IMG/VR virus record: IMGVR_UViG_3300017744_000117
Span: 1-26,428 of that record
Source of the DNA: a virus
Length of the DNA: 26,428 nucleotides
Strand: one strand, 5' to 3'
Positions 6,488 through 25,031 of this stretch are shown one piece after another. The notes below the pieces were generated by a model. It saw only the letters and a program-made list of their open reading frames with translations. It searched no databases and was not told the origin of the DNA. Position numbers and translations under genes: made by a program. Positions within the stretch are counted from its first letter, which is position 1; the number at the start of each line of letters is the position of its first letter.

Positions 6488-6799
6488 TTAATTTTTAAAG
6501 TCTTTACCTCTTACAAATTTTTCATTCCCCGTGTGCTTAACAGCAGTTTTCATTAAAGATTTAATATCGGCACTACCTTTTCCCATTGACTTTAAAGCCT
6601 TTTCCAATTTTTTAGGTTCACCAGCTAAAGCCATTCTACGATCTTTAGAATAATCTAATGGGAAGACATCCATGTCTAAAAGTTTCATAGCCATTGATTG
6701 ACCCTTTTTATTAAATGGATCATAGTCAATAGGTACTACAATAACCATGTTAGCTTCGGATAAGGTATGAGATTCTCTAATATCCTTAAAACTTTTCAT
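6488..6799 (-). CDS. Putative head-packaged protein with capsid-targeting-type leader
   Basis: A 103-residue protein whose first 15 residues (MKSFKDIRESHTLSE, then Ala) match the layout of T4 internal-protein capsid-targeting sequences: Met-Lys-aromatic-Lys, amphipathic stretch, then an (L/I)xE cleavage site followed by a small residue. After the predicted cut the body starts with a hydrophobic strand, MVIVVPIDYD, and ends in a basic tail (GNEKFVRGKDFKN). Its ATG shares TAATG with the stop of the gene to its right, in the late operon. Leader-directed packaging is inference from the sequence; the mature function is not recognised. Confidence 0.8.
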   Translation of the reverse strand: MKSFKDIRESHTLSEANMVIVVPIDYDPFNKKGQSMAMKLLDMDVFPLDYSKDRRMALAGEPKKLEKALKSMGKGSADIKSLMKTAVKHTGNEKFVRGKDFKN

Positions 6800-7446
6800 T
6801 AGTCTGACTCGTTATCTGCTTCGTAATTTGCATCAACATAATCAAAAAACTCTTTTTTCTTATCGCCTTTTAATTCAGAAGGAGATGATACTTTAAACTT
6901 TTTCAAAGCTTTATCAAAGAATGCTCTATATTTCTTTTGCTTATCAGATAGTTCTTCTTCAACTTCTTCACCAGTAACTTTATATTTTTTACCAGCAAAT
7001 ACAAAGGTTTTTTCACCTTTTTCTTTAGCAGCCATTACAGCTTTTCCAAAGGCATTACCTTCTTCTTTCTTTTTCTTCTCTTTACTGTGATAAGCTTCTT
7101 CGACTTCTTCGGTTTCTTCAGTTTCTTCTTTAACGTTAGATCCATCATCTTTCATTCCAGATTTTTTAACTGTATGCTTATCTTTAAAGTCTTTTTCACC
7201 TTTAGCTCTTGGTTCTTCAGGACCTTCTTTCATTAGGTCATCATGATTGTCAACAGCATATTTGTTGGCTTCATCTTCACTATCAAATGATTTGACTTCA
7301 TCACCATTTTTATTAACAACAACAAATTTGTCGCCTTTTTTGGAAACATGTTTCTTAGGGTCCATTTCCTTAACCGCTTTTTTGCCCTCTAGAACGTCCT
7401 TGACTGTGTCTGCAACGTTGAGAGTTTCTTTATCTTGCAATTTCAT
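6799..7446 (-). CDS. Highly charged late protein, probable virion/head component
   Basis: A 215-residue low-complexity protein. Residues about 40-75 hold a compact motif (KGDKFVVVNKNGDEVKSF then DSEDEANKYA) similar to a short fold seen in other marine phage proteins; residues 105-130 are an acidic Glu/Thr/Lys stretch; residues 130-160 carry a second compact motif (NAFGKAVMAAKEKGEKTF, ending KKYKVTGEE); residues 165-215 hold SDKQKKYRAFFDKALKKFKV, then SSPSEL and FFDYVDANYE, a tail I recall from marine T4-like phage head-region proteins. There is a strong ribosome site, AGGAGG, five bases upstream. The N-terminus (MKLQDKETL) is not a clear targeting leader. Modular, possibly scaffold- or internal-protein-like; not assigned. 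Confidence 0.8.
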   Translation of the reverse strand: MKLQDKETLNVADTVKDVLEGKKAVKEMDPKKHVSKKGDKFVVVNKNGDEVKSFDSEDEANKYAVDNHDDLMKEGPEEPRAKGEKDFKDKHTVKKSGMKDDGSNVKEETEETEEVEEAYHSKEKKKKEEGNAFGKAVMAAKEKGEKTFVFAGKKYKVTGEEVEEELSDKQKKYRAFFDKALKKFKVSSPSELKGDKKKEFFDYVDANYEADNESD

Positions 7447-7457
7447 GGGTTCCTCCT

Positions 7458-7742
7458 TTATTGCATTAGTAACATTCCAGTAATAGTTGTTGCTGCAGCA
7501 GCCATGACTATCCAGAATAATTTATTTATTACATTAATGGTAGTAGCATTTGACATAACGTTTTTCTCTACTGCCTCTAATCTTCTTTGTCCATCAACTA
7601 ACATTTCCATTTGTTGATGTAAAAACTTTTCCATTTGACTAATTTTTTCCTCAGCTCGAGCTAATGAAACTATAGCTTCAGACAATTTGTCTAGCTTATT
7701 TTCTATTCTATCGAGTCTATCGTTTTGAGTCTCTCTTGCCAT
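7458..7742 (-). CDS. Coiled-coil protein with C-terminal membrane anchor (XhlA/holin-associated-like)
   Basis: A 94-residue protein: a heptad-rich helix from about residue 5 to 65 (DRLDRIENKLDKLSEAIVSL onward) and a single hydrophobic C-terminal segment at about 72-92 (KLFWIVMAAAATTITGMLLM). This topology matches XhlA-type haemolysin/holin-associated phage proteins; I also recall a similar small family in marine T4-like phages. Its ATG overlaps the TAA of the gene to its right (TAATG). It could take part in lysis timing or be a membrane-associated structural protein. The fold call is good; the role is uncertain. Confidence 0.8.
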   Translation of the reverse strand: MARETQNDRLDRIENKLDKLSEAIVSLARAEEKISQMEKFLHQQMEMLVDGQRRLEAVEKNVMSNATTINVINKLFWIVMAAAATTITGMLLMQ

Positions 7743-8314
7743 TACTTATTATACTCTTTAAAGTTTTTCATTCCAGCATATTTTTGAGTTTCTTTAGTAG
7801 TACCAGCCATTGATCCCGTATATTTACCAATAACTTTACCAGAAGAAATATATTTGTCTAAGATTTTTTGTTGTTTAAGGTTAAGCTTCATAGCATTGTA
7901 TAAAGCTTCTTTACGATTTGTAGTATTACCATTATATGGCTTTTTAGCTGCGTAAATACGACTAGCTTTGACATCACCAGCAGCTTTTCCTACATACTGT
8001 GATTTAATTTGACCACGGTCTAAATAATCTTTTAGAATCTCAGATTGAATTGGATTTAATTTCATTGCAGCACACAATGATTCATAGTTCTTACCCCAAG
8101 ATTCAGCAACAATGTTTTTAAATGATGACATTGTTTTTGACTCATTAGCTAATCTTAAAGCGTTTGCTACGTTTGGATCTTTAGCCAAACCCTTTTTCAT
8201 TTTTTCGATTTTTTTATACGCACCAGTCATATTACCACCCATAAGTAAAGCTAATTTAACTGCTTTAGCGATGAGTTCTGGTGGAAACTTTTGATTATAT
8301 TTTTCTTGTAACAT
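7742..8314 (-). CDS. Two-part protein with internal targeting-like leader and duplicated C-terminal unit
   Basis: A 190-residue protein. Residues 1-60 (FPPELIAKAVKLALLMGGNM ... LRLANES) form a helical domain that I recall from other T4-like phage proteins. At residue 62 a second leader-like sequence appears, MSSFKNIVAES, resembling a capsid-targeting sequence with a VAE site; its Met codon is at 8131. After it come two similar units of about 45 residues (about 77-122 and 136-180), both with AMKLN-(x)5-IL-x-(K/D)Y, then a (Q/G)KY or SQY turn and a closing YA. The C-terminus is MKNFKEYNK, again leader-like. The start ATG has GAGGA four bases upstream. It may be a fusion of a helical domain and a formerly separate packaged protein. 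Confidence 0.8.
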   Translation of the reverse strand: MLQEKYNQKFPPELIAKAVKLALLMGGNMTGAYKKIEKMKKGLAKDPNVANALRLANESKTMSSFKNIVAESWGKNYESLCAAMKLNPIQSEILKDYLDRGQIKSQYVGKAAGDVKASRIYAAKKPYNGNTTNRKEALYNAMKLNLKQQKILDKYISSGKVIGKYTGSMAGTTKETQKYAGMKNFKEYNK

Positions 8315-8315
8315 A

Positions 8316-9512
8316 TTATCCTCTTACTTTAGCGGCTAGATCTTTATCAGCTCCACCCCATGTTCCTTTTGATTTAGTGACGAATGAATTAACTCTAGCC
8401 AATCCCCATTGTGTTGGATTAGTACCAGGTCTATGGCTTGTTTTCCAAGCTGCATAACCTCTATCAAAAACTTTCTTTAATATACCATAAGGCATACCAG
8501 TTTTATCTGCTTTTTTCTTTAAAGCGGCTTTAGCGTCTGTTTCTTCTAGTGATTGTTTAAAGCTTTTCATTTCTCCGAATTTTTTCTTATAATTTTTTGT
8601 ATGTTGACTTTCGGGTGCATCCGGTCTTGGTTTATTATATGCTTTTTTCTGCTTTGCAGTCATATCATCATAATCCTTATGAGGACCATAACCTTCTACC
8701 AATTCAACTCCATCTAACCATACACGTTTTTTGTTTTCACCTAGTTGGACAATAACATAATTAGTACCTAGTACTTTAATATTACCAACTTCGCTTGTTT
8801 CTTTAATGACTACTTCGTCGCCAACTTTAAATAAATTACCTTCAACATATTCTTCTCTTCTATCAGAGACTTTTTCTAATTGAACATGTTTTCTAAAATT
8901 TTTTGATTCAGAAAGACCCATTCCAGCTCTTACAGCATTAAATAATCCTTCAACATCTTTAAACCCTTTGGGCATACCTTTTGCAAATGTTTTTAAGTCA
9001 TTATCATTTGCTGCAGCTCTTAATTTTGAAGCTGACATTCCAGTAGCTCCTTCTGCATCTGGATCTCTAGCACCAGCACTTTTAACTACAATACCACCAT
9101 CAAATTGATAAAATCCATGTCTACCTTTTGTACCATTATATTTGTTTAAAAGTTTTTCAAATTCTATAACTCTATCTTCACCTGCAACCATAGTTACTTT
9201 AGTATAACCTTGGTCATACAACTTAACAACTACATCGAAAGCGCTTCTTACACCTTTATCAGCCATGATACTTCTAGCATGCTTAGGAAACATTTTTCTT
9301 AAAAACTTAACTTTTAATTTAAAGTCCAATGGATTCTTTTTTGGATCCTGACTTTGTGAGGGATATATTCTATATTGACTACCCCTTGCTAACTTTTTAA
9401 TTGCATCCATGAGCTTTTCATGACCAATTGTTGGTGGATTAAATCTACCAAAGGCGAATACAACTTCACCACTATCTTCTTTCAAATATGCCTTAAAGGA
9501 ATTTACTTTCAT
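8316..9512 (-). CDS. NMNAT-like nucleotidyltransferase fused to SH3/KOW-like and C-terminal domains, with targeting-like leaders
   Basis: A 398-residue multidomain late protein. Residues 1-12 (MKVNSFKAYLKE) form a capsid-targeting-type leader ending in LKE. Residues 17-200 are a cytidylyl/NMN-adenylyltransferase-type domain: GRFNPPTIGHEKL at 22-34 (the T/HxGH nucleotide motif) and MSASKLR at 159-165. A second leader-like stretch lies near 202-214 (ESKNFRKHVQLEK), followed by a small beta domain at 224-272 (FKVGDEVVI ... KRVWLDGVELV) of SH3/KOW type. A third leader-like stretch, MKSFKQSLEE, is at 315-324, and residues 325-398 hold GMPYGILKKVFDRG, then HRPGTNPTQW and GTWGGADKDLA, a phage domain I recall as a DUF5824-type family. 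It could be a polyprotein cut inside the prohead. An NAD- or nucleotide-related activity is inferred. Confidence 0.85.
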   Translation of the reverse strand: MKVNSFKAYLKEDSGEVVFAFGRFNPPTIGHEKLMDAIKKLARGSQYRIYPSQSQDPKKNPLDFKLKVKFLRKMFPKHARSIMADKGVRSAFDVVVKLYDQGYTKVTMVAGEDRVIEFEKLLNKYNGTKGRHGFYQFDGGIVVKSAGARDPDAEGATGMSASKLRAAANDNDLKTFAKGMPKGFKDVEGLFNAVRAGMGLSESKNFRKHVQLEKVSDRREEYVEGNLFKVGDEVVIKETSEVGNIKVLGTNYVIVQLGENKKRVWLDGVELVEGYGPHKDYDDMTAKQKKAYNKPRPDAPESQHTKNYKKKFGEMKSFKQSLEETDAKAALKKKADKTGMPYGILKKVFDRGYAAWKTSHRPGTNPTQWGLARVNSFVTKSKGTWGGADKDLAAKVRG

Positions 9513-9515
9513 AAT

Positions 9516-9881
9516 TTATTTTTGCGCTTCTTTATTTTTTTTAAGCTTTAATTTATCCATCTTTTTAACTTGTGGTAAAAGCTTCTTTGCTATTTTATTT
9601 ATAGCACCTTTTTTCTTATCTACTTTCTTTTCTAAATCTGTACGAGCAGCAAATCCCAAATCACCTTTGGATTTACCTTTGAGGAGTTTTTTGATAATTA
9701 TTTCACGAGCTTGCTTTTGTGCTCGTGCTTTAAGTTTTTCTGGAGATGCAAGCTTTTTAGCAGCTTTTTTCCTGCCAAGCTTGATTTTTGCTTTGTTTTT
9801 CTTGAATGCAGCTTTCATTTTCATACGAGTAGCCATTGACATAGCTTCGTCTTGATCTGCAAACTCTTTAAAAGTTTTCAT
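9516..9881 (-). CDS. Very basic late protein, probable DNA-binding internal head protein
   Basis: A 121-residue protein of extreme basicity; roughly a third is Lys or Arg. It starts MKTFKEFADQDEA, close to the T4 internal-protein leader pattern, although no strict (L/I)xE follows. The body contains KAAFKKNKAKIKLGRKKAAK, then LEKKVDKKKGAINKIAKKLL. I recall basic proteins of this kind next to the ligase-like gene in cyanophage and pelagiphage relatives. A GAGGA site precedes the ATG. Charge and leader suggest packaging with DNA inside the capsid, as for T4 IPI-IPIII. The specific function is unknown. Confidence 0.8.
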   Translation of the reverse strand: MKTFKEFADQDEAMSMATRMKMKAAFKKNKAKIKLGRKKAAKKLASPEKLKARAQKQAREIIIKKLLKGKSKGDLGFAARTDLEKKVDKKKGAINKIAKKLLPQVKKMDKLKLKKNKEAQK

Positions 9882-9904
9882 ATATCCTCGGTTATCCCAT
9901 TAAA

Positions 9905-11149
9905 TTAGTTAGGATTATCCCAACCTTTTATTATATCTTTGCTAAAATTGTTAGTAGAAAATTCTAATCTATCAACAAGTTTAACTGCTCCACCTTCCAT
10001 ACGATCTATGGCGACAAAACCTTCTGGGTTGGTCACCTTAAATCCGGATTTTGTTTTTACAAAAGTCCCTATTTTATTGAGACTATTAAGTTTATTTATA
10101 ATAATTAATTTGCTATCTACAATAAAATTTTGTAAATCGAACACTAATTTCAATTTTTTTTGATTAGATTTACTAAAAAACTTAAGAACTCTTTCTCTTT
10201 TGGCTTCAACTCCAGCCTTTCCTTTTACAGACGATAACTTATCAGATTGTTTATCATATCTAGTATTAACCCAATCAATCATACCTTTTACATGAGCTGA
10301 TGTATTTGTTATTCTTTCATTGGCTCTTACCTTTGTATTATTATATGTATTGATTAACAGGTTAAGTTCTTTATCTGATTCAATTTCTTTAAGAGTTGAA
10401 GCTGCGATTTTTTTAAAGATCTTTCCAGCTTCTGAAAGCTTTTTAGTGACTTCTGCAGTTTCTTTTGCAGTCATTGTAGCAGTTCCAGAGAGATCTGGTA
10501 ATGTTGCATCTTGCATCCAAACGTTGGAACTCTTTTTTAACTTTGGAACAATTTCTTTTCCAAACTCTGCTCTCATAGTTTCAAATGTAGAACCAGAATA
10601 TGCTGTATGCCAAACAATACCTATTTTGGCTTTGCTGATTTGTTTTTCTAACGCTGACCCTGTAGGTATAGCATAAACAATAGTATTAGGATGGAAAGTA
10701 GTATGTTGGATTCCATTAATTTTCTCCTTTTTCAAATCACCTTTTTCAAACATAAAGTCACCTTGTATAACATCAGTTATACCTAGATCTTTTAAATTAT
10801 CAAATGCTAAAATTAATTTTTTCTGTAAGTCACCAGAAGTATCTGCTTTGATATCTTCATGACTTTTATAAACTTTTGGATTGGCATTGAATATACCTTT
10901 TTTGGCTACAAAGAATTCACCATCGCTTGGATCTAATCCTGCGAATACAGCGGGGGCCCCGTCCCACTTGACCGTAACGTCTACTGGCGCCTTCGCGTTA
11001 CCGGAAAGCATATCCCTAAGTGCTCGTAATGCTAGGATAGCCTGGCGGGCCCCCTTAACTCCACCGTCAAGTACAAGATCCTCAATATGAGTCATATGAG
11101 TATTCTTACTTGCGGCCTCTGTCATGAGTTGTTTTTTAAAGCTCAACAT
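9905..11149 (-). CDS. ATP/polynucleotide-ligase-superfamily nucleotidyltransferase with targeting-type leader
   Basis: A 414-residue protein. The N-terminus MLSFKKQLMTEAASK resembles a capsid-targeting leader (MTE|A). Covalent-nucleotidyltransferase motifs are visible: motif I KWDGAPA at 61-67 (the Lys would be adenylated or guanylated), a central GDFMFEKGDLKK that may be motif III, and near the C-terminus EGFV (376-379) and KLVDR (390-394), which fit motifs IV and V. This is the DNA/RNA ligase and capping-enzyme superfamily. I recall a conserved T4-like family with this gene, annotated only as unknown function. Bases 10941-11080, encoding residues about 24-70, are far richer in GC than the rest. 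The start has AAAGG nine bases upstream. Substrate (DNA nick, RNA or NAD-like) is unknown. Confidence 0.85.
   Translation of the reverse strand: MLSFKKQLMTEAASKNTHMTHIEDLVLDGGVKGARQAILALRALRDMLSGNAKAPVDVTVKWDGAPAVFAGLDPSDGEFFVAKKGIFNANPKVYKSHEDIKADTSGDLQKKLILAFDNLKDLGITDVIQGDFMFEKGDLKKEKINGIQHTTFHPNTIVYAIPTGSALEKQISKAKIGIVWHTAYSGSTFETMRAEFGKEIVPKLKKSSNVWMQDATLPDLSGTATMTAKETAEVTKKLSEAGKIFKKIAASTLKEIESDKELNLLINTYNNTKVRANERITNTSAHVKGMIDWVNTRYDKQSDKLSSVKGKAGVEAKRERVLKFFSKSNQKKLKLVFDLQNFIVDSKLIIINKLNSLNKIGTFVKTKSGFKVTNPEGFVAIDRMEGGAVKLVDRLEFSTNNFSKDIIKGWDNPN
10941..11080. other. GC-rich patch inside the ligase-like gene
   Basis: About 58% G+C (81 of 140 counted) in a window that is about one-third GC. 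It includes the palindrome GGGGCCCC at 10953-10960 and several GGC, GCC, CGG and CGC triplets. Neighbouring sequence on both sides returns to the AT-rich norm. It covers the codons around the KWDG motif. It may mark recombination with a higher-GC relative, or a constrained RNA/DNA structure. Confidence 0.85.
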
Positions 11150-11408
11150 TTATTTTTACCTTTAAGTTATTATATCCTTTTATTAATCTATGGTACATCA
11201 TTTTTGGAATATAATATGTTTTACATTCTTCGAGTAATATTGGCAAGCATCCATTATATTGTAATTGCCATGCTTGTCCTTCTAATACTTCTATTACTCT
11301 ATCCTCTTTATCACGATGCCAAACATACTCTTCATCTGGAGCATGTACATCAAACATTCTTATATTCTCGGTTTCCGTATACGGCTTACCAGAAATAACT
11401 ACCACCAC
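11136..11408 (-). CDS. Small cupin-like conserved phage protein
   Basis: A 90-residue protein. The core VWHRDKEDRVIEVLEG, then WQLQYNGCLPI, YIPKMMYHRLIKG and LKVKI, has the alternating strand pattern and spaced His residues of a minimal cupin fold. I recall WHRDKEDR proteins in many marine T4-like phages, with no known function. The reading frame opens with tandem GTG codons at 11408, inside the end of the gene to its right; the first ATG is residue 18, so the exact start is uncertain. It overlaps the following gene by 14 bases, consistent with coupling in the late operon. A binding or sensing role is speculative. Confidence 0.8.
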   Translation of the reverse strand: MVVVISGKPYTETENIRMFDVHAPDEEYVWHRDKEDRVIEVLEGQAWQLQYNGCLPILLEECKTYYIPKMMYHRLIKGYNNLKVKINVEL

Positions 11409-11751
11409 CTTTTAATCCCAAATCTTTTGCATACTTGGGTAACCTACAAGCCCAGTATCCGGCCGATAATTTATCGGTCTTTGTTTCACAATTATGTCTA
11501 GCAGCAAATGATCTTGCCGCATCTCTATCATTAATTTTTGAAGATAGCCCACCTTTTTTATCTCCAAAATTGACTTTTTTAACATTGCCTGTCTTAGGAT
11601 CTCTAACATATACCACATATTTTGTAGGTCCACTAGATCTTTTTGGTTTATTTAATTCCGGCTCTGATTCCTCCATCATAGGTTGTTCTAAAGGAACATG
11701 TTTGCCTTCATATAAACCAAAGCTGTTTCTAAGTTCAGATAATGTTTTCAT
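11386..11751 (-). CDS. Putative packaged protein with targeting leader and compact C-terminal domain
   Basis: A 121-residue protein starting MKTLSELRNSFGLYE, then Gly: a leader ending in LYE|G, matching the (L/I)xE prohead-protease consensus. Residues 40-121 contain KYVVYVRDPKTGNVKKVNFG, SSKINDRDAARSFAARHNC and AGYWACRLPKYAKDLGL. I recall phage proteins with this C-terminal fold (KxVxFGD ... ARxSFxARHxC) that follow a similar leader. Two Cys residues (in RHNC and WACR) could pair or bind metal. Its ATG overlaps the stop of the gene to its right (TAATG, preceded by AAGGGAAG). Function unknown; packaging is inferred. Confidence 0.8.
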   Translation of the reverse strand: MKTLSELRNSFGLYEGKHVPLEQPMMEESEPELNKPKRSSGPTKYVVYVRDPKTGNVKKVNFGDKKGGLSSKINDRDAARSFAARHNCETKTDKLSAGYWACRLPKYAKDLGLKGGGSYFW

Positions 11752-12194
11752 TACTTCCCTTTTATTGTTCGTACAACTTTGCTTAAAATCATTTTAAGTG
11801 CTGTCATATAAGCCCAACCATATCCATAAAAAATATGGAAGGTGTGGTTCTTTTCAATTGCAGATTTAGGACCAAATTTCTTTGTCCAATTATCCACGTA
11901 CTCACCTTTATATCTTAAAACAGCATGAGAAGTTTTCCATTTACTTGGTCCAACTAAACAAATTCCTGCTTGGTGAGTGATTAATAACCACCACATTTTA
12001 ATATGGCTTTCACCACATAATCGATACAATATAGAAAGTGCGTAATCTTCACAATCACCTACATATTTACCTTCAGCATCAACTGAATAGATTATCTTCC
12101 AAGCATCTGCCATCCCATATTGGTCTTTATCTTTACGATATTTCCATCTGGAATTAAATGACTTTACTATTGCGTCTCTTGTTTTATTATCCAC
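11751..12194 (-). CDS. Transglutaminase-like cysteine peptidase
   Basis: A 147-residue protein carrying the bacterial transglutaminase-like cysteine peptidase motifs: GDCEDYALS at 46-54 with catalytic Cys C48, then SHAVLRYKGEYVDNW with H90 and D101 as the rest of the triad. It would act as a small protease or amidase; the target is unknown. It lies amid genes for predicted head-packaged proteins but lacks their leader. The GTG start at 12194 overlaps the previous gene by eight bases. About 30 residues at the C-terminus (YGYGWAYMTALKMIL) are hydrophobic and may contact a membrane or partner. Family call is firm; role is open. Confidence 0.85.
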   Translation of the reverse strand: MDNKTRDAIVKSFNSRWKYRKDKDQYGMADAWKIIYSVDAEGKYVGDCEDYALSILYRLCGESHIKMWWLLITHQAGICLVGPSKWKTSHAVLRYKGEYVDNWTKKFGPKSAIEKNHTFHIFYGYGWAYMTALKMILSKVVRTIKGK

Positions 12195-12429
12195 CGAATT
12201 CGTGCCCCGCTACTCTTTTCATTTGCTTTTTATATTCAGCAAAATCTGGTTTATCTTTGTAAAGTTTAATAGAAATTTCATTTCTTTCTTTACCCTTTAT
12301 TCTCCACTTATAACCTTTTTCTTTATGCTCAGGATCTGTAGTTTTAACAACACGACGCTTATAACCATCTTCCCAGGTTTCGCCTTTGTACTTACCTTCT
12401 CCTTCCAAAAAAGTCTTAAAGTTTTTCAT
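12187..12429 (-). CDS. Small putative packaged protein with MKNFKTFLE leader
   Basis: An 80-residue, very charged protein. It begins MKNFKTFLEGEGK, close to the T4 capsid-targeting pattern M-K-T-(Y/F)-x-x-F, though the Glu spacing does not give a strict (L/I)xE. The remainder (WEDGYKRRVVKTTDPEHKEK, YKWRIKGKERNEISIKLYK) is basic with alternating strands. Both ends overlap its neighbours: TAATG with the gene to the right and eight bases with the peptidase gene. Function not recognised. Confidence 0.75.
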   Translation of the reverse strand: MKNFKTFLEGEGKYKGETWEDGYKRRVVKTTDPEHKEKGYKWRIKGKERNEISIKLYKDKPDFAEYKKQMKRVAGHEFGG

Positions 12430-12860
12430 TATTTCTTTTTCAAATCGTACCTAAAAGATCTACCTTTAGATTGACCTTTTTTAGTAATACCATATCCAGC
12501 CATACTAGCTAGTTGTTGTAAAATAGGAAAAGCCTTTTCGTCTTGTTTCATTCTTTTCAACTTAGAAATTCTACCTTCTATTTCGCTAAAAAATGTTTTA
12601 AGAATAGCCATGTCATCCATGACTAAAGGTGCTTCTTCTATTTCAACATCTTCATCAAACATACCAGATGCTTTCATCATTTTTAAAGCATCTTTCTTTG
12701 CAGCATCAGCATTTTGCTTATTAATTTTTTCTACTGCTTTTTTAATCATAGCTAAGCGTTTTTTCATTTCCTTAGGAGATAATTTTTCATTTACCTCTTC
12801 ATTTTTTTCGCTTATGGATTTAACATAAGCTTCTTTCCAGTTTAAATGTTCTTTTTTCAT
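12429..12860 (-). CDS. Helical charged late protein, putative packaged protein
   Basis: A 143-residue protein, largely helical. It begins MKKEHLNWKEAYVKSISEK, with ISE at residues 16-18 as a possible prohead-protease site. Residues 27-60 are Lys/Ala-rich helix (KEMKKRLAMIKKAVEKINKQ); residues 65-80 are acidic (MFDEDVEIEEAP); the C-terminal part MDDMAILKTFFSEIEGRISKL, trimmed here as MDDMAILKTFFSEIEGRI, is followed by a basic tail (GQSKGRSFRYDLKKK). The internal acidic EEAP may be another processing point. It is linked by TAATG to its neighbours in the late operon. No family recognised. Confidence 0.75.
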   Translation of the reverse strand: MKKEHLNWKEAYVKSISEKNEEVNEKLSPKEMKKRLAMIKKAVEKINKQNADAAKKDALKMMKASGMFDEDVEIEEAPLVMDDMAILKTFFSEIEGRISKLKRMKQDEKAFPILQQLASMAGYGITKKGQSKGRSFRYDLKKK

Positions 12861-14233
12861 TATTGATATACCTTTACGTATGCGCTAGAATCTTCTGATT
12901 TTGATCCAGCATAATTAACTATTTTTGTTATCCATCTATTAGCTTTAGTTCCAGAATTAATGTCTGCATAATATAGTACATACATGCATGCTAATTTAGA
13001 ACCAATCCAATATACATCTTTCTTTGCAATCTCTTTTTCAAAATTTTCATAAGTTTCATTCTTATAAAAATGATTATATAATTTATAAAATATATTGAGA
13101 TCTCTTTTCTTTCCTCGAGTAATATTTTTTGCTATTTTATTTAGAGCTTTATTATCAGGAAGTTTTTTTCTAAAGACTTGTTTAACAGCATCAATCATAA
13201 TACCATATCCAGCACCACCGCCTCTTGCTGTTTTGAGTACTATTTCTCCTTTAATTGCTGCTCCAGCAGAGCCGGCTCTTAAAGACATTTTACCGGTATC
13301 AAAGACGATTGTAGCACCTTTATTATCCCAAAAGGTTCCTCTTACTTCTCCTTGAAATAAAAGAGATTTGATTTTATGATCATCGGTATCTGGTGGTAGT
13401 TTAATATTATATTCTTTTGCTTTTGCTGTTTTCTTAACAAGTTTAAGTGATATACCAACAACTTTTCTATCCACAAAATTTTGTAATATAGCTTTATTAT
13501 AGCTTGAAATACTTTCTGGATTGAATGTTTTACTAATACTAATTGATTTATCAATGGCCCAGATATCTCCTGGATTCCATTTATCATCTTTAACAGCTTT
13601 TTGATCTGAATTTTTATATGCCAAATTTTTAAGTGCATATATATCATTCATAGTTTTACTATTTCGATGAAATTTGTGGGATTTATTGATGTAGCCTTTT
13701 TTAATAAGAAGAAGTGCTGATTCATAAGATGAATGAAACCAATCACCTTCAACTGAAAGAATTTCATCTAATGAGGCATCAACTTCAACTTGTTTATATG
13801 CAGCTTTTAAAATATCCGGATCCATAAAGAATTCTTCTGATTGAATTCCATGGTCTAATATAGCTTGGCATATAACACATTGATGTGATTCTGTAATTTT
13901 AGTATTTAGTGATCCTCCTCCGGATCCACCTCCACCACCAAAGACAGAACTTTTACCTAGATCAGAAGAACTAATAGATTTACCATTACCATGTAAAGGA
14001 AATGCCTTTTTAAGCTTTTTGAAAATTTCAATTTGCTTTAAGGCGTCTTCAATTTCAGTAACTGTAAATGTACCACCACTAGCTAATTCTAATGGTTGAT
14101 TATCTCGAATTAATCTGGCTAAGATATCTATTCTATCTTCACCAGTAGTAGAATTAGGCTTATCCAATTGTCCAGGAGTCAGTTTTACTGCTTCCTGAAT
14201 TGGCTCTAATTTAAACGATTTAAATGATCTCAT
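12860..14233 (-). CDS. Large late protein with targeting leader and glycine-serine linker
   Basis: A 457-residue protein, first in the late operon. It starts MRSFKSFKLEPIQE, then Ala: a targeting-type leader with IQE|A. A helical region (about 30-80) leads into a natural glycine-serine linker at 99-108 (GGGGGSGGGS), then a CVIC pair at 119-122. The large C-terminal part contains DDKWNPGDIWAIDKS (about 220-235), a signature I recall from phage proteins of unknown activity, and a glycine-rich GGGAGYGIMIDAVK. An AGGGA site precedes the ATG, and a TATAAATA late promoter lies 24 bases upstream. Linker plus leader suggest an injected or head-internal protein of at least two domains. Enzymatic function is not evident. 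Confidence 0.85.
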   Translation of the reverse strand: MRSFKSFKLEPIQEAVKLTPGQLDKPNSTTGEDRIDILARLIRDNQPLELASGGTFTVTEIEDALKQIEIFKKLKKAFPLHGNGKSISSSDLGKSSVFGGGGGSGGGSLNTKITESHQCVICQAILDHGIQSEEFFMDPDILKAAYKQVEVDASLDEILSVEGDWFHSSYESALLLIKKGYINKSHKFHRNSKTMNDIYALKNLAYKNSDQKAVKDDKWNPGDIWAIDKSISISKTFNPESISSYNKAILQNFVDRKVVGISLKLVKKTAKAKEYNIKLPPDTDDHKIKSLLFQGEVRGTFWDNKGATIVFDTGKMSLRAGSAGAAIKGEIVLKTARGGGAGYGIMIDAVKQVFRKKLPDNKALNKIAKNITRGKKRDLNIFYKLYNHFYKNETYENFEKEIAKKDVYWIGSKLACMYVLYYADINSGTKANRWITKIVNYAGSKSEDSSAYVKVYQ

Positions 14234-14486: not shown

Positions 14487-14625
14487 GGCTTGCAATCTTT
14501 TCTACCCAAACTTGGTAGCCTTTTTCTTTCATACCGCTAGCAAATTCCGCGGCGGTTTCTTCTAATTCATAGAGATATTCCGCCACGATATTTCCGTTCT
14601 TTTTAGCTGTAACTTTAAAAATCAC
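14479..14625 (-). CDS. Small conserved-looking protein, GTG start
   Basis: A 48-residue protein. The frame is open further upstream (to 14691), but that part lies inside the 3' phosphatase gene; the GTG at 14625, with GGTGG six bases upstream, gives a neat small overlap. The sequence reads IFKVTAKKNGNIVAEYLYEL, then AAEFASGMKEKGYQVWVEKI: strand, helix, strand, compatible with a small alpha/beta fold. It overlaps both neighbours, suggesting coupled translation. Function unknown. Confidence 0.65.
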   Translation of the reverse strand: MIFKVTAKKNGNIVAEYLYELEETAAEFASGMKEKGYQVWVEKIASHD

Positions 14626-15091
14626 CTGGAGCCACCTGTAAACACTTAAGTCCTTTTTCTCTCCACATATCAACAACTCTTTGTCGATCATCTAAGATGA
14701 ATTGAACTGACCAAAATGGTTGTACATATTCTTCGTACATTTCCCACTTTACAATAGAATCTTCTCTAAAGTCTTTATCAGCTCTTGTGAAAATATGATC
14801 AAATGGTACTCTGTGTCTTTTTAACCAAGACCTACAGATTAATTCTGCAGAAGCTGGCCTTGCAGTAAAGATAATAATAGTATGATCTGCTGAGAATCGA
14901 TGTACGATATCTCCTACAACAGGATCCAACCCATCTTCACTAGCCCTAGACCAGTCATAAGGATCTCTATCAGTAAATCCTTCACGATGACACAAAGTTC
15001 CGTCCATATCAACCAAAACAGCTGGCGGATGGACACCCTGAGTTTCAGTACTTCCCATGTCAAACCTTTTAAATAATTCTTGCTGATCCAT
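14615..15091 (-). CDS. Stand-alone polynucleotide 3'-phosphatase (HAD domain of T4 Pnkp/PseT)
   Basis: A 158-residue HAD-fold phosphatase matching the C-terminal phosphatase domain of T4 polynucleotide kinase: VDMDGTLCH with the nucleophile and acid/base Asp (28 and 30), FTARPAS at about 75-81, and a C-terminal block FILDDRQRVVDMWREKG, then QVAPGDF, nearly the same as the end of T4 PseT. No kinase P-loop domain is present, so it would remove 3' phosphates (or 2',3'-cyclic ends) without 5' kinase activity, in RNA or DNA end repair. The ATG at 15091 has no ribosome site; the in-frame ATG at 15058 has AAAGG six bases upstream and may be the true start. It sits in the 15691 promoter unit. Confidence 0.9.
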   Translation of the reverse strand: MDQQELFKRFDMGSTETQGVHPPAVLVDMDGTLCHREGFTDRDPYDWSRASEDGLDPVVGDIVHRFSADHTIIIFTARPASAELICRSWLKRHRVPFDHIFTRADKDFREDSIVKWEMYEEYVQPFWSVQFILDDRQRVVDMWREKGLKCLQVAPGDF

Positions 15092-19336: not shown

Positions 19337-19590
19337 TATCGATACCTCCTATCTGGTCTTAATTGCATTGATTTTTCTTTCTTTTTCCAGCGAGCTATAC
19401 CTTCAGCTTTTTTCCTTTTGCGTTTTGCAGTAGGCTTTTCATAGAATTCTCTACGTCTAACTTCTTGTACAATACCAGCTCTTTCACATGCTTTTCTAAA
19501 TTTTCTTAGAGCAACATCAAATGGCATTGGCTTTGATGGTCTTTTATCTTTAGGATGTCTCTTCCTATGTCTTAAATCTATACTAGGCAA
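19336..19590 (-). CDS. rpsU: Phage-encoded ribosomal protein bS21
   Basis: An 84-residue bS21 homologue. The core [18 protein letters not shown], then [20 protein letters not shown], follows bacterial S21 closely. Relative to E. coli S21 it has a basic insertion after the start ([15 protein letters not shown]). The start is TTG at 19590, overlapping the last codons of the peroxiredoxin, with GGGAG about nine bases upstream; the ATG at residue 22 would remove the N-terminal strand. bS21 exchanges readily on 30S subunits near the mRNA anti-Shine-Dalgarno site, so a phage copy may bias initiation to phage messages (established idea for viral S21; not shown here). Some SAR11-infecting T4-like phages are reported to carry S21. 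Confidence 0.95.
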
Positions 19591-20092
19591 CGTACTGATC
19601 TCCCGGTTCCCAACTACATCCGGTTAATCCACCGGCTTTGAGAGCCTGAATTGTTCTTAAAATTTCATCAGCACTTCTTCCTGTATCTAAAGCATTTGCA
19701 GATACATGTTGAATAGTACCTTCTGGATTAATGATAAAAGTTGCTCTTAAACAAACACCTTCCTCAATATCCAATATACCACATTCACCTGATAGATACA
19801 AACCAGTATCACCAGCTAATGTGTGTTTAATTTGTCCAATAATATCATTTTGCAACTTCCAATTAAGTTTGCAATATTCATTATCACCTGATATTCCTAA
19901 CACAATAGCTTCATCCATTAGTTTATCCATACCTGCAATTTCAGTTGGACAAATAAAAGTAAAGTCTTTTGGATAGAAATAAATTACTGCCCAAGATCCT
20001 TCCAATTGCTCGGAAGAAACTGTGACATGTTGATTCTCAGCATTGATACCATTAAGGCGAAACGCTGGGAATTGATCATTTACACTAAGCAT
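19583..20092 (-). CDS. 2-Cys peroxiredoxin (AhpC/TSA family)
   Basis: A 169-residue thiol peroxidase that reduces hydrogen peroxide and organic peroxides. The peroxidatic site [13 protein letters not shown] is intact (C48, with the Thr/Ser of the family nearby), and a C-terminal [14 protein letters not shown] gives a likely resolving C159, the 2-Cys AhpC arrangement. It is first in the operon after the promoter at 20124-20152, with a GGAG site five bases before the ATG. It is an auxiliary metabolic gene: protection of host and phage DNA or of the reductase radical from peroxide during infection is the likely benefit. A phage copy in an operon with uvsX and bS21 is unusual. Confidence 0.93.
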
Positions 20093-21313: not shown

Positions 21314-22315
21314 TTAAAAGAAATCCTCAAGTGTGTTAGTTGCTTCCATACCATTCCAATATGGATAGTACTCTCTTGATAAATGAATTGATTGTGGCTT
21401 TTCCATATAGTCAAAATCAAGTTCACCCTTTTTATTTAATAAATATTTAGTCCATTGAATACCTAATCCGGAATCATGAATAATTTCATTAAATAATTTT
21501 CGAGCGCTATTACGCTCTTCCCATGTACCACTAAAAGGTTTACCATTATAGAATCCTGATTTAGGAATCTTTCGTGATTCATTTTCGATTGGTAGAAGTT
21601 CGTATATACGACCTGGAACAGATAAGTTCTTCACCTCCTCGACATATCGTTCAGCAAGATCTTTTACGTTCTTCTCCCAACCTCCTTCTAATCTACATAC
21701 ATGATGTCTTATATCAATATTACCAAAATAAAATTCTACTGATCCCTCAGTTTCTATATTGATAAATGATTTAAGACCTTCGTTTAATGCTCCATTTAAA
21801 GTTTTAAACGGAACACTATTCACAGTCCAACCTGGCCTATACATACAGATTGAATGAGAATCTCCTACTACCAGTTTTTTTGTTTGATTCGGATAATCGA
21901 CTCGTTCAGCTTCTTCGAACATACGTTCAAGATTTTCGAGATCGACCTCATTCCATTCTGGTTGTACATCCTTTTTAGCTGATTCAAGTTTTGATTGAAC
22001 CATTTGGTGGTATGGTGGAAAGTCCATTCCAATCGAATAAACTTTACCTTTGAACTTAGAAAAGTTAACAGTGTTTTTAACGTATGGAAAACCATAGACG
22101 CCACCAAACATATTAATGCCACCAGACCAGTCATTCCCATGATAAACCCAAAGAGCATCATAATTGTTGTGGTCTTCAATTTCTCCACCGTAATTGATAT
22201 CGCAGTGTCCATATTTCTCCTTAATCATATCGCCATATATTACACCTTGAGCTCCTCTATGAGAAGCCGCTCTTTTAGCAATAGGTATAAATGGGCAGTT
22301 AATTATATTTTTCAT
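21314..22315 (-). CDS. SGNH/GDSL-like enzyme in the putative modification cluster
   Basis: A 333-residue protein. Central VVGDSHSICMYRPG (149-162) is an SGNH block I with its Ser, and YFGNIDIRHHVCRL (196-209) has the glycine/asparagine and DxRxH pattern of related SGNH-type proteins. The N-terminal 140 residues (AQGVIYGDMIKEKYGH ... YDALWVYHGNDWSGG) look like a separate domain. It overlaps the gene to its right by ATGA and is one base from the methyltransferase-like gene. Members act as esterases or acyltransferases; here acylation or deacylation of a modified base or of inositol is a speculative role. Motif evidence is moderate; the exact catalytic set is uncertain. Confidence 0.65.
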   Translation of the reverse strand: MKNIINCPFIPIAKRAASHRGAQGVIYGDMIKEKYGHCDINYGGEIEDHNNYDALWVYHGNDWSGGINMFGGVYGFPYVKNTVNFSKFKGKVYSIGMDFPPYHQMVQSKLESAKKDVQPEWNEVDLENLERMFEEAERVDYPNQTKKLVVGDSHSICMYRPGWTVNSVPFKTLNGALNEGLKSFINIETEGSVEFYFGNIDIRHHVCRLEGGWEKNVKDLAERYVEEVKNLSVPGRIYELLPIENESRKIPKSGFYNGKPFSGTWEERNSARKLFNEIIHDSGLGIQWTKYLLNKKGELDFDYMEKPQSIHLSREYYPYWNGMEATNTLEDFF

Positions 22316-23373
22316 ATTAAAAATTCTTCTATTGATGATGGTTTATGTTGTAAACTTTGTACAATCGACGTCACATCAGTATTTGCAATTTGTCTTTTTT
22401 CAATTCTTGATGTATTCTTTTTCATATCGCAGTATACTCCGTATTGACATAACGCCACTTCAGCAGTATAACACATCAATTCATTTTGTGGAAATGAATA
22501 TACTTCTTTATCCTCCACAATAACATTGTGCCAAAAATCATTAAATTCAATTTTGCCAAATAATTTTTCTTGGTTTTCTCTTACCCAAACAACTTGATTT
22601 CCAGGTGAACATTCTCTATTAGTTAATTTTGGAAATAACATTTTAAGAGTAAGTTGACATCCTGGTCCTGGCACTACAAATGCCTCATCATGATTGAATG
22701 GTAAGTTAGGATTAGTTGATTGGTCAGTAGCTCCATGATAACCATAGTAAGGACCTATACCTTCTTTCGAAAGTAATATTTCAACACATTCTTTTAAAGA
22801 AGTACAATTAAGAATTTTATCAACAGTACCATCTACTAACCAATCTGATAACCAAACAATCATATTGACTGCATGAGTATCAAATCCATATTTCTGTTTT
22901 GCAAATTTATTTGATGCTCCCATAAGAGATGTATGAAGTTCAGTCTTTGACCAAATAGAATATCCCAAACCTTTGGCTCTATCTAAATTAGATCTAATTG
23001 TACTTACATATTCTGGATCGATTAAAGCTCGTTCAAAATCAGTGTAAGCTTTCCTTGGATCTAATTCAGCATTAAGAACTCTATGGCAGTCTCTTCCTCC
23101 ATAAAAGTGAGTAATTAAAAAATTAAGTACTCTATTCTTTTCAGACATTTCTTTATTTGTGGATATATTTGTTGCAATGTATCGTAAACGATCATCCATT
23201 GTTACATTAGGACCAAAGTATTCTGTGTTCCATTGTATTGCGGGATCATCTCCATTAAAAGATTCAGATATACCAGCTCGATAATCAAATCCTTCAATAA
23301 CACGTTTCCAAAAATAAGCAATATCATCTGCTACATTTTGATCAACATATTTCCACAAATTAGTACTTGACAT
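22312..23373 (-). CDS. HhH-derived base-hypermodification family protein (aGPT-Pplase / hydroxymethyluracil-kinase helical domain type)
   Basis: A 353-residue all-helical protein. Residues 205-217 GIGPYYGYHGATD followed at 229-238 by DEAFVVPGPG match the hallmark GxGxF/Y..Y...D ... PGPG of the HhH-derived family predicted in alpha-glutamyl/putrescinyl-thymine phages, also found as the helical domain of 5-hydroxymethyluracil DNA kinases (Iyer and colleagues; Weigele-group biochemistry). No P-loop kinase domain is attached. The gene overlaps the HAD gene upstream and has GAGGA just before its ATG. With a dCMP hydroxymethylase in the same cluster, the expected target is a hydroxymethylated pyrimidine in DNA. 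Assignment is by motif memory and needs a profile search. Confidence 0.6.
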   Translation of the reverse strand: MSSTNLWKYVDQNVADDIAYFWKRVIEGFDYRAGISESFNGDDPAIQWNTEYFGPNVTMDDRLRYIATNISTNKEMSEKNRVLNFLITHFYGGRDCHRVLNAELDPRKAYTDFERALIDPEYVSTIRSNLDRAKGLGYSIWSKTELHTSLMGASNKFAKQKYGFDTHAVNMIVWLSDWLVDGTVDKILNCTSLKECVEILLSKEGIGPYYGYHGATDQSTNPNLPFNHDEAFVVPGPGCQLTLKMLFPKLTNRECSPGNQVVWVRENQEKLFGKIEFNDFWHNVIVEDKEVYSFPQNELMCYTAEVALCQYGVYCDMKKNTSRIEKRQIANTDVTSIVQSLQHKPSSIEEFLI

Positions 23374-23755
23374 GTTCCTCGCTTTCTCTAACCAAATGTA
23401 TTATTTGTAAATCCGGATGAACCTTTTTAATTTCAGCAATTTGAATAGGATCATCTTCAAAGTGTAATCCTACTTTATAGCCATGAACTTCTTGAAGCTC
23501 TTTTATCATTTGAGCTTTATGCTTACCAGAAGCTTCACGACTATAATCAGGATGATTTCTTTCCAATGGATTAAACAATACTCTATTATATATGTTTCTA
23601 GATTCAAGCATTTTTTCAGTTTCTTCTCTTTGTTCGAACGACCGCCCTGTGATAATAATGTCCATATCACAAGGTCTTACGCCATAATGCTCTTCACCAA
23701 AATAGATGACACCATCAATATCAAAAGTATTAACTAAGACTTCAGACATAATCAT
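23360..23755 (-). CDS. HAD-superfamily phosphatase
   Basis: A 131-residue minimal HAD protein without a cap: motif I FDIDGVIYF (D12, D14), motif II ITGRSF (T36), motif III Lys at SGKHK (K78) and motif IV HFEDDP (E100-D102). All four catalytic motifs are present. The gene overlaps the end of the inositol-phosphate synthase by 14 bases and the start of the next gene, so it belongs to that unit. Candidate substrates are inositol-1-phosphate, a nucleotide or a phosphorylated base; context favours the first, but the family is promiscuous. Start is the ATG at 23755 or the one at 23749. Confidence 0.85.
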   Translation of the reverse strand: MIMSEVLVNTFDIDGVIYFGEEHYGVRPCDMDIIITGRSFEQREETEKMLESRNIYNRVLFNPLERNHPDYSREASGKHKAQMIKELQEVHGYKVGLHFEDDPIQIAEIKKVHPDLQIIHLVRESEEHVKY

Positions 23756-25031
23756 TCTCTGCAGATTGAAATGTATGTGGTAGATCTTTTGCTTTTGGAC
23801 GATTGTCTGCCATCTGAGGTTCTGTCATTGGAGTTACTACTCGTCTTGCTAAAGCATCACATTCGAATTTAGCATCTTCTGTTTTCAACTGAACAGGTGG
23901 AGTCTTTTGAGTCCAAGCTGATGGACCTCTTAAGAAACCTACAATACCCATTTCAGAAGCTACCTTACAAAAACGAATTGCTGAAACAACTACGCCACCA
24001 GAATTTGGTGAATCTTGTACAGAAAGTCTTGCCGACATTTCATAACGAGCACCAGCAAATCCATAAGCAACCATATCAAAATTTGCAATTTTATTATCAG
24101 ATGAAATATAATCTCCACCTGGTTTTTGTAAAACTGTTAATGATGGTCCAGCATATAGAGTCATACCAGAAGTAGTTTCATCTCTTACAATATTTTGACC
24201 TTTCAAAACATTTTCTTTTGAAACATGTTTATTATGTAGCCTATACTCTTTAGCCATATTTAAGAAATCAGTATTAGCAGTTCTACCTGTTCTAATATGT
24301 TCTTGACCTTGAGTAGAACCAGCTGCCATATTCATTTGAATATGTTGTGTAACCATAAGACCAGAATCTAACATAGCACCTTGAAGAACTTCAGACATTC
24401 TTGAAGCACCCCAAGCTGATCTCATATCAGATCCAACAATAGTTAAACCTTTATCGATAAATCTTTGTTCAGTTTCTACAGCATCTTCAGTTGATATAAG
24501 TGTAGGAATACAATTTACAAAATGTACTCCTGCAGCTAAAGCTACATCAACCCAATACTTTGAAGCATCTTCTGAACCTACCGGTAAATAGTTAATAAGA
24601 ACATCTACTTTATGATATTGTAAAAGTTCTACAGTTCTATCAAATGATTCTGCTGGTATTGCACCATTGACAAATGTAACTTCATCAGGATAATCATTCA
24701 TATGAGGAGCAATTCCATCCAGTTCTGGAGCAGAATATACTACTGCATCATTAGATACACATGAAGAATTACTTTTAGTTGTAATCTCATCAACGTGATC
24801 CATTGCGCAATTAGGTTGAGCTCTTAAAGCTTCAGCTAATTTTTTATTTACTTTACGTTTGTCTATATCGAATCCAACTACAAATTTAATATCATGTACT
24901 GAATATCCACCGATATCCTCATACATAAGACCTACTTTGTCTTGTGGGTTTTCGTTATAGTATTGAATGCCTTCCACTAGGGACTTGGCACATGATCCGA
25001 CACCTACAATGCCGACTTTTATTTTTGACAT
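23742..25031 (-). CDS. ino1: myo-Inositol-1-phosphate synthase (Ino1/MIPS)
   Basis: A 429-residue NAD-dependent synthase converting glucose-6-phosphate to myo-inositol-1-phosphate. The Rossmann start is KVGIVGVGSCAKSLVEG (5-21); INYLPVGSEDASKYW (146-160), TIVGSDMRSAWGASRM (197-212), NTDFLNMAKEYRL (253-265) and SVQDSPNSGGVVVSAIRF (337-354) are conserved blocks shared with bacterial Ino1. The overall form resembles the shorter bacterial/archaeal type (M. tuberculosis Ino1, about 367 residues) rather than the yeast enzyme, with extra residues around 238-252 and at the C-terminus. AAAGGAGA precedes the ATG. It is the first gene after a 70-bp gap and heads the overlapping modification-type cluster. 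Phage copies are unusual; inositol may feed a DNA modification or a lipid. Confidence 0.95.
   Translation of the reverse strand: MSKIKVGIVGVGSCAKSLVEGIQYYNENPQDKVGLMYEDIGGYSVHDIKFVVGFDIDKRKVNKKLAEALRAQPNCAMDHVDEITTKSNSSCVSNDAVVYSAPELDGIAPHMNDYPDEVTFVNGAIPAESFDRTVELLQYHKVDVLINYLPVGSEDASKYWVDVALAAGVHFVNCIPTLISTEDAVETEQRFIDKGLTIVGSDMRSAWGASRMSEVLQGAMLDSGLMVTQHIQMNMAAGSTQGQEHIRTGRTANTDFLNMAKEYRLHNKHVSKENVLKGQNIVRDETTSGMTLYAGPSLTVLQKPGGDYISSDNKIANFDMVAYGFAGARYEMSARLSVQDSPNSGGVVVSAIRFCKVASEMGIVGFLRGPSAWTQKTPPVQLKTEDAKFECDALARRVVTPMTEPQMADNRPKAKDLPHTFQSAENDYV

Follow-up and report, generated by a model that had tools for sequence, protein, structure and literature searches.

The locus examined here raises the question of whether a phage enzyme of the ligase and capping superfamily is carried into the host cell in the phage head. 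The window, by which we mean the whole of IMG/VR record IMGVR_UViG_3300017744_000117 (26,428 bases), bears on its minus strand an open reading frame that an earlier note had read as a probable packaged polynucleotide ligase. The reading frame is real. It encodes a member of Pfam PF19782 (DUF6267; E 2.6e-100 in the Pfam search) and also matches the PHROG profile phrog_455. Both families are without an assigned function in the databases, and our literature search found DUF6267 named in no paper. When the window protein was used as a tblastn query, 400 of 50,697 phage records were matched, nearly all of them from T4-like marine phages; the short cyanophage form matched 469 of the same 50,697. The records bearing the gene include 371 named Synechococcus and 61 named Cyanophage. 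DUF6267 is near-universal among T4-like cyanophages, where it mostly lacks the N-terminal leader described below, and the window gene is a T4-like marine phage gene of this very common, function-unassigned family. The features to which we refer are as follows.

9905..11149, minus strand: DUF6267 protein, candidate covalent nucleotidyltransferase of ligase fold (414 residues, ATG to stop)
11117..11149, minus strand: capsid-targeting-like leader MLSFKKQLMTE, with a predicted prohead-protease cut before A12 (sequence and model disorder)
10952..10969, minus strand: motif I, KWDGAP, in which K61 is the predicted AMP-accepting Lys (K61 and D63 invariant)
10748..10765, minus strand: motif III-like QGDFMF with D131 (Q129 and D131 invariant)
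10598..10609, minus strand: family-specific HTAY element (H181, T182 and Y184, invariant), near motif IIIa
10085..10474, minus strand: helical insertion, residues about 226-355, between motifs IIIa and IV (DSSP of the model)
10013..10024, minus strand: motif IV, EGFV, with E376 (E376, G377 and V379 invariant)
9968..9982, minus strand: motif V-like KLVDR with K390 and R394 (both invariant)
9516..9881, minus strand: small Lys-rich protein with leader MKTFKEFADQDEA, between the DUF6267 and NMNAT-like genes
8316..9512, minus strand: NMNAT-like cytidylyltransferase with DUF5824, the conserved partner (Pfam and PHROG matches)
9477..9512, minus strand: leader MKVNSFKAYLKE of the NMNAT-like protein, to be compared with the virion-detected NMNAT leaders
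14615-15091, minus strand: HAD/PNKP-type 3' phosphatase, stand-alone, without a kinase domain (Pfam HAD_PNKP, E 3.2e-40)

The four motifs named in the earlier note, KWDG (K61), GDFMF (D131), EGFV (E376) and KLVDR (K390), lie where it had placed them. In alignment A1, which contains 59 homologues with identities as low as about 26%, K61, D63, Q129, D131, E376, G377, V379, K390 and R394 are invariant, and G64 is conserved in at least 90% of the 59 sequences. The same motif residues are kept in alignment A3, for which the cyanophage form was the query, and in a relative from the jumbo phage XaC1 all of them recur except some letters of motif V. Family membership and the invariance in 59 homologues show that the motifs, as read from the sequence, are not due to chance. 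In order and spacing they agree with motifs I, III, IIIa, IV and V of the superfamily. The KxDG of motif I with its nucleophilic Lys corresponds to K61 and D63, and the acidic motif III, the EGxV of motif IV and the Lys of motif V correspond to D131, E376 and K390. The acid of motif III is, however, Asp instead of the usual Glu, and the second Lys position of motif V is occupied by Val392 (K390-x-V392). In T4 Rnl2 homologues both K225 and K227 are invariant; the KxK of motif V is not found in DUF6267. The helical insertion is shorter in the cyanophage relatives than in the window protein. A weak AbiV/HEPN match within it (E 0.036) was taken as chance.

A model of the window protein was built with AlphaFold (AF2) from alignment A1 (pLDDT 91, pTM 0.87). 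A second model, from alignment A3, was that of a cyanophage protein of 321 residues which is about 27% identical to the window protein (pLDDT 87, pTM 0.84); since the two alignments have some members in common, the two models are not fully independent. For the window model, the top 1000 PDB chains from Foldseek were re-aligned with VIA-align. The best 50 rows listed were all RNA or DNA ligases, with the Naegleria RNA ligase 6vt3 in the lead (Z 8.7, rmsd 3.8, 191 aligned). The best 50 rows for the cyanophage relative were likewise all ligases, and there the Naegleria enzyme gave a Z of 9.2 and an rmsd of 3.5 over 178 aligned residues, nearly the whole protein. Among the best 50 rows of each list, RNA ligases outrank DNA ligases. 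The Z scores of 8.7-9.2 barely exceed the usual best of that tool, 7-8, and the Foldseek E-values against the PDB were weak (best 0.07 and 0.10 for the two models). The seven best Foldseek rows of the window model were DNA ligases despite these weak E-values, and capping enzymes were also present among the Foldseek rows. The nucleotidyltransferase fold of the superfamily thus appears in both models with moderate Z and weak Foldseek E. Although the Z scores are modest, the absence of unrelated folds from both best-50 lists is hard to explain otherwise. In these models, nick-sealing RNA ligases are the enzymes that DUF6267 most resembles in shape.

The best structural match of both models, the Naegleria gruberi RNA ligase (Rnl5 type; PDB 6vt3/5cot), has mutants of K170, E312 and K326 named in its PDB titles, and the spacing between E312 and K326 is 14, the same as that between E376 and K390 in the window protein. 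DUF6267 differs from this enzyme in that it shows no detectable sequence similarity, has the extra helical insertion before motif IV and is missing the N-terminal part (the aligned region of the chain starts at about residue 140). T4 Rnl2 and TbREL1 have the same fold, with Z of 7.7 and 8.1 against the window model, and present KxxG/KxDG, GE/GD, EGYV/EGFV and the motif V Lys in the same order. Unlike them, DUF6267 has Asp as its motif III acid and Val in place of the second Lys of motif V, and the profile comparison is insignificant. ATP DNA ligases of the T4 gp30 type share the superfamily fold at Z 5-7, with a lower structural rank.

Sequence searches were silent on this kinship. No significant ligase match was obtained with phmmer and hmmsearch against PDB sequences, neither PF09414 nor PF01068 was matched by any of 45 DUF6267 members in Pfam, and NCBIfam and PADLOC gave nothing significant. 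Comparisons by hhalign with T4 Rnl1, T4 Rnl2 and T4 gp30, and with 18 Rnl2 sequences, were insignificant. Membership in the T4 Rnl2 family (PF09414) was rejected on the missing profile match and the incomplete KxK, and membership in the ATP DNA ligase family (PF01068, gp30) on the 45 unmatched members and the hhalign result for T4 gp30. As the kinship escapes every sequence profile method applied, DUF6267 was filed by predicted fold and motifs as a branch of its own, outside both families. The assignment to the ligase and capping superfamily in the earlier note is backed by the two predicted folds and the invariant motif residues, and we regard it as very probable that DUF6267 belongs to the covalent nucleotidyltransferase superfamily and has its fold.

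From the predicted fold and motif layout we infer the chemistry and the substrate. K61 would most likely attack an adenylate donor to form Lys-AMP; the AMP would then be transferred from K61 to a 5'-phosphate end, and DUF6267 would finally seal the nick in the nucleic acid. No domain recognised as RNA- or DNA-binding was seen in the protein. On balance, the models make DUF6267 a rather good candidate for an active strand-joining enzyme.

The gene next to be considered is the NMNAT-like gene, which the earlier note had placed two genes away and linked to the ligase. It is indeed present at 8316-9512, and the link is strongly supported. In loci with enough downstream sequence, an NMNAT-like homologue lies downstream of DUF6267 in 48 of 48 cases in the window clade and 46 of 46 in the C48C1 clade (94/94 in all); a homologue of the small Lys-rich protein does so in 33/48 and 46/46, respectively. 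The DUF6267 and NMNAT-like genes touch or overlap in S-SM1, S-SZBM1 and P-HM2. In S-PM2 (AJ630128, L388:2526-4305) a frame change splits DUF6267, and its C-terminal half, motifs IV and V included, is in frame with the NMNAT-like domain, as verified from the DNA; BFVD holds the joined version as a 591-residue S-PM2 entry. The phrog_455 profile spans both domains. A full-length fusion was not found among reading frames of at least 450 residues in the loci scanned. It is quite likely that DUF6267 and the NMNAT-like protein form a functional unit.

This linkage also bears on another possible interpretation, namely that the ligase-like fold forms Lys-NMP for a non-joining use, such as the capping or modification of RNA, a protein or a cofactor in concert with the NMNAT-like partner. 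The 94/94 loci, the S-PM2 fusion and the two-domain phrog_455 profile would fit such a use, as would the atypical motif V and motif III Asp and the capping enzymes among the Foldseek rows. The closest folds in the VIA-align lists, however, are RNA ligases and not capping enzymes, and we consider the non-joining use possible but unlikely. Still more doubtful is a specific form of strand joining in which the two proteins act as an NAD-linked or NMN-recycling unit that supplies the cyanophage ligase and, virion-borne in the window branch, seals at entry.

If DUF6267 joins strands, the substrate may be sought in a published puzzle. No homologue of the T4 g30 DNA ligase has been recognised in cyanomyoviruses, and a distant homologue may go undetected (PMC2984593). 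Among 15 genomes of DUF6267 phages, 12 are without PF01068, none has PF01653, and PF09414 is found only in XaC1; the T4 control scores in both PF01068 and PF09414. In 18 further viral contigs, mostly fragments, PF01068 occurs in two and PF09414 in none. As no second ligase can be recognised in the majority of the DUF6267 phages checked, DUF6267 is a candidate for the ligase whose absence from T4-like cyanophages has been reported (PMC2984593). T4 gp30 would be the T4 counterpart of such a replication role, and a separate gp30-like ligase coexists with DUF6267 in some relatives.

In its strongest form this idea makes DUF6267 the replication DNA ligase, a diverged replacement of gp30 that seals Okazaki nicks. 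It draws on the report and the genome counts just given, and on the position of the gene within the replication block gp43-uvsX-gp41 ... gp61, between gp41 and gp61, in several cyanophages. The record counts are also complementary: T4-type portal records number 381 named Synechococcus and 62 named Cyanophage, nearly coinciding with those of DUF6267 (371 and 61) in a comparison by name counts and not record by record, and T4 gp30 matches fall mainly in records with other names. In 13 of the 80 closest loci, however, a normal ATP DNA ligase shares the gene block with DUF6267; PF01068 and DUF6267 occur together in 3 of the 15 genomes (S-CRM01, DLP6 and XaC1). The order of RNA over DNA ligases in both best-50 structural lists also argues against a gp30 replacement, a head-targeted form is ill-suited to a replication enzyme, and the host ligase is able to substitute. 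The idea of a simple replacement of gp30 loses ground with these 13 loci, where a gp30-like ligase shares the block, and we consider the replication role rather improbable. Since an ATP DNA ligase coexists with DUF6267, a role in RNA or special nick sealing beside the DNA ligase is at least as likely.

The typical ATP DNA ligase lies between thyX and DUF6267 in loci in which the full block is readable. In L035 (2603-3868) and about 12 other loci it is leaderless and consists of PF01068 plus an OB domain. In such relatives it follows thyX, in the stretch that corresponds to the 3' phosphatase of the window.

That 3' phosphatase had been joined with the ligase in the earlier note as a hint of an end-healing system. 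The gene itself holds up (HAD_PNKP, as listed above), lies 3.5 kb upstream of DUF6267, and together with the RNA-ligase-like fold would suit an end-healing or tRNA-repair set in which a packaged ligase acts with the phosphatase. The association, however, is not a conserved one: of the 80 closest loci only three (L001, L009 and L010) have the phosphatase, as do 2 of 37 loci with enough upstream sequence, and a single one of 15 genomes of DUF6267 phages scores above the cut-off. The window phosphatase has no leader, and no kinase partner was recognised for it, so that the conserved phosphatase and kinase pair of PNKP-type end healing is not seen here. Since the phosphatase is not a conserved partner of DUF6267, an end-healing pathway is not shown, and we regard such a set as very improbable.

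The remaining part of the question is whether the protein travels in the head. The proposed leader of the earlier note, MLSFKKQLMTE/A, is present and matches the T4 capsid-targeting pattern. Residues 1-14 of the window protein are disordered in the AlphaFold model, and the first 11-14 or so residues precede the conserved family start KNTHxxHxED. Leaders are general in the window and C48C1 clades, with a median length of 12-14 residues (e.g. MKSFKNQLSEAAGKN and MENFSNFITEQKN). In the P-HM2 clade, 80 of 80 DUF6267 proteins start with MSKN or MAKN and are leaderless, and no leader motif was seen in the S-SSM7 clade. As far as can be read from the sequences, the leader is confined to the window branch of DUF6267 phages and resembles the T4 capsid-targeting peptide. 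In that peptide, residues 4 and 7 act in targeting and residues 8 and 10 in processing (PMC9026906). According to the T4 record, ipII and ipIII both begin with MKTYQEFIAEA, and the aromatic and hydrophobic positions and terminal Glu of T4 internal proteins are found in the DUF6267 leader. The IPII/IPIII leader MKTYQEFIAE/A resembles MKSFKNQLSE/A, MENFSNFITE/Q and the window leader, which differs in being one residue longer between F4 and E. The pattern occurs at 5 of 12 gene starts of the window cluster and at 6 of 176 internal Met (Fisher p 1.6e-4), a statistic that is illustrative only because the pattern was chosen after looking.

Support for packaging also comes from the partner. NMNAT-like proteins have been found in cyanophage virions (PMC3037559, PMC9146016, PMC10665884, PMC9602691), namely in those of S-SM1 (PMC3037559), S-SZBM1 (PMC9146016) and S-CREM2 (PMC10665884), with leaders MKKFSAFLNEA, MRFRQFIIEA and MKNFSSFLTEA, respectively. 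These proteins (T4-GC190), the neighbours of DUF6267 genes, have leaders of the same type as the window protein; their enzyme fold differs from that of DUF6267, and their activity is putative too. The authors of two virion-proteome papers thought that such proteins were possibly carried over during purification. The leaderless DUF6267 proteins of S-SZBM1 (gp135) and S-CREM2 (58914-59762) are absent from the virion protein lists (PMC9146016 and PMC10665884, respectively). No virion proteome of a phage with a leader-bearing DUF6267, HTVC008M and Melnitz included, was found in the literature. The claim of the earlier note that the protein travels in the head is thus supported indirectly, by the likeness of its leader to those of T4 and of the virion-detected NMNAT-like proteins, but the leader-bearing form has been seen in no virion. 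We predict, with fair confidence, that it is packaged in the head in the window branch.

A leader together with Lys-rich neighbours, as in T4 internal proteins, would also suit a head protein that is catalytically dead or has a purely structural role. The active-site positions, however, are invariant, also in the leaderless cyanophage forms that were not detected in virions. Unlike IPII and IPIII, the DUF6267 cargo is enzyme-like and its packaging is a prediction. A dead or structural protein is, in our view, the least probable of the interpretations considered.

The explanation that we favour, and think probable on the basis of the models, is that DUF6267 is a divergent nucleotidyltransferase branch which joins strands and which, in the window branch, is packaged with its NMNAT-like partner. 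The leaderless cyanophage form would presumably be an enzyme of the cell phase. In the window branch, a T4-type capsid-targeting peptide has been added at the N-terminus; the protein would then probably enter the head, lose its leader to the prohead protease and be delivered into the cell along with the phage DNA, in company with the similarly tagged NMNAT-like partner.

Several other genes of the record may be mentioned. A run of small genes at 6488-14233 (minus strand) bears capsid-targeting-like leaders (MKSFKDI, MKVNSFKAYLKE, MKTFKEF, MKNFKTFLE and MRSFKSFKLEPIQE) and is, from these sequences, a candidate cluster of head-protein cargo with function unassigned. Within it, the gene at 12860-14233 (minus strand) encodes a leader-bearing protein of 457 residues (phrog_1462, no Pfam match) that has an upstream homologue, relative to DUF6267, in 23 of 37 testable window-clade loci, and the gene at 11751-12194 (minus strand) has a weak, below-cut-off match to the BTLCP transglutaminase-like cysteine peptidases (PF06035, E 3.5e-5). 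Two overlapping genes at 21314-23373 (minus strand) match parts of phrog_17781, and the second also matches the helical domain of 5-hmdU DNA kinases (PF18723, E 2.4e-17), a hint that thymines of the phage DNA may be hypermodified. A phage-borne homologue of Myo-inositol-1-phosphate synthase (PF01658) is encoded at 23742-25031 (minus strand), and an AhpC/TSA peroxiredoxin at 19583-20092 (minus strand) adjoins recombination and methylase genes.

The assignment of a ligase fold matters, since about 470 of the 50,697 phage records carry DUF6267, a family that has had no assigned function. The puzzle raised in the literature, why no DNA ligase is recognisable in T4-like cyanophages (PMC2984593), could thereby be put to a direct test. 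The family would also give the NMNAT-like proteins that are recurrently detected in cyanophage virions a concrete partner, and its orthologues with and without a head-targeting leader provide a natural comparison.
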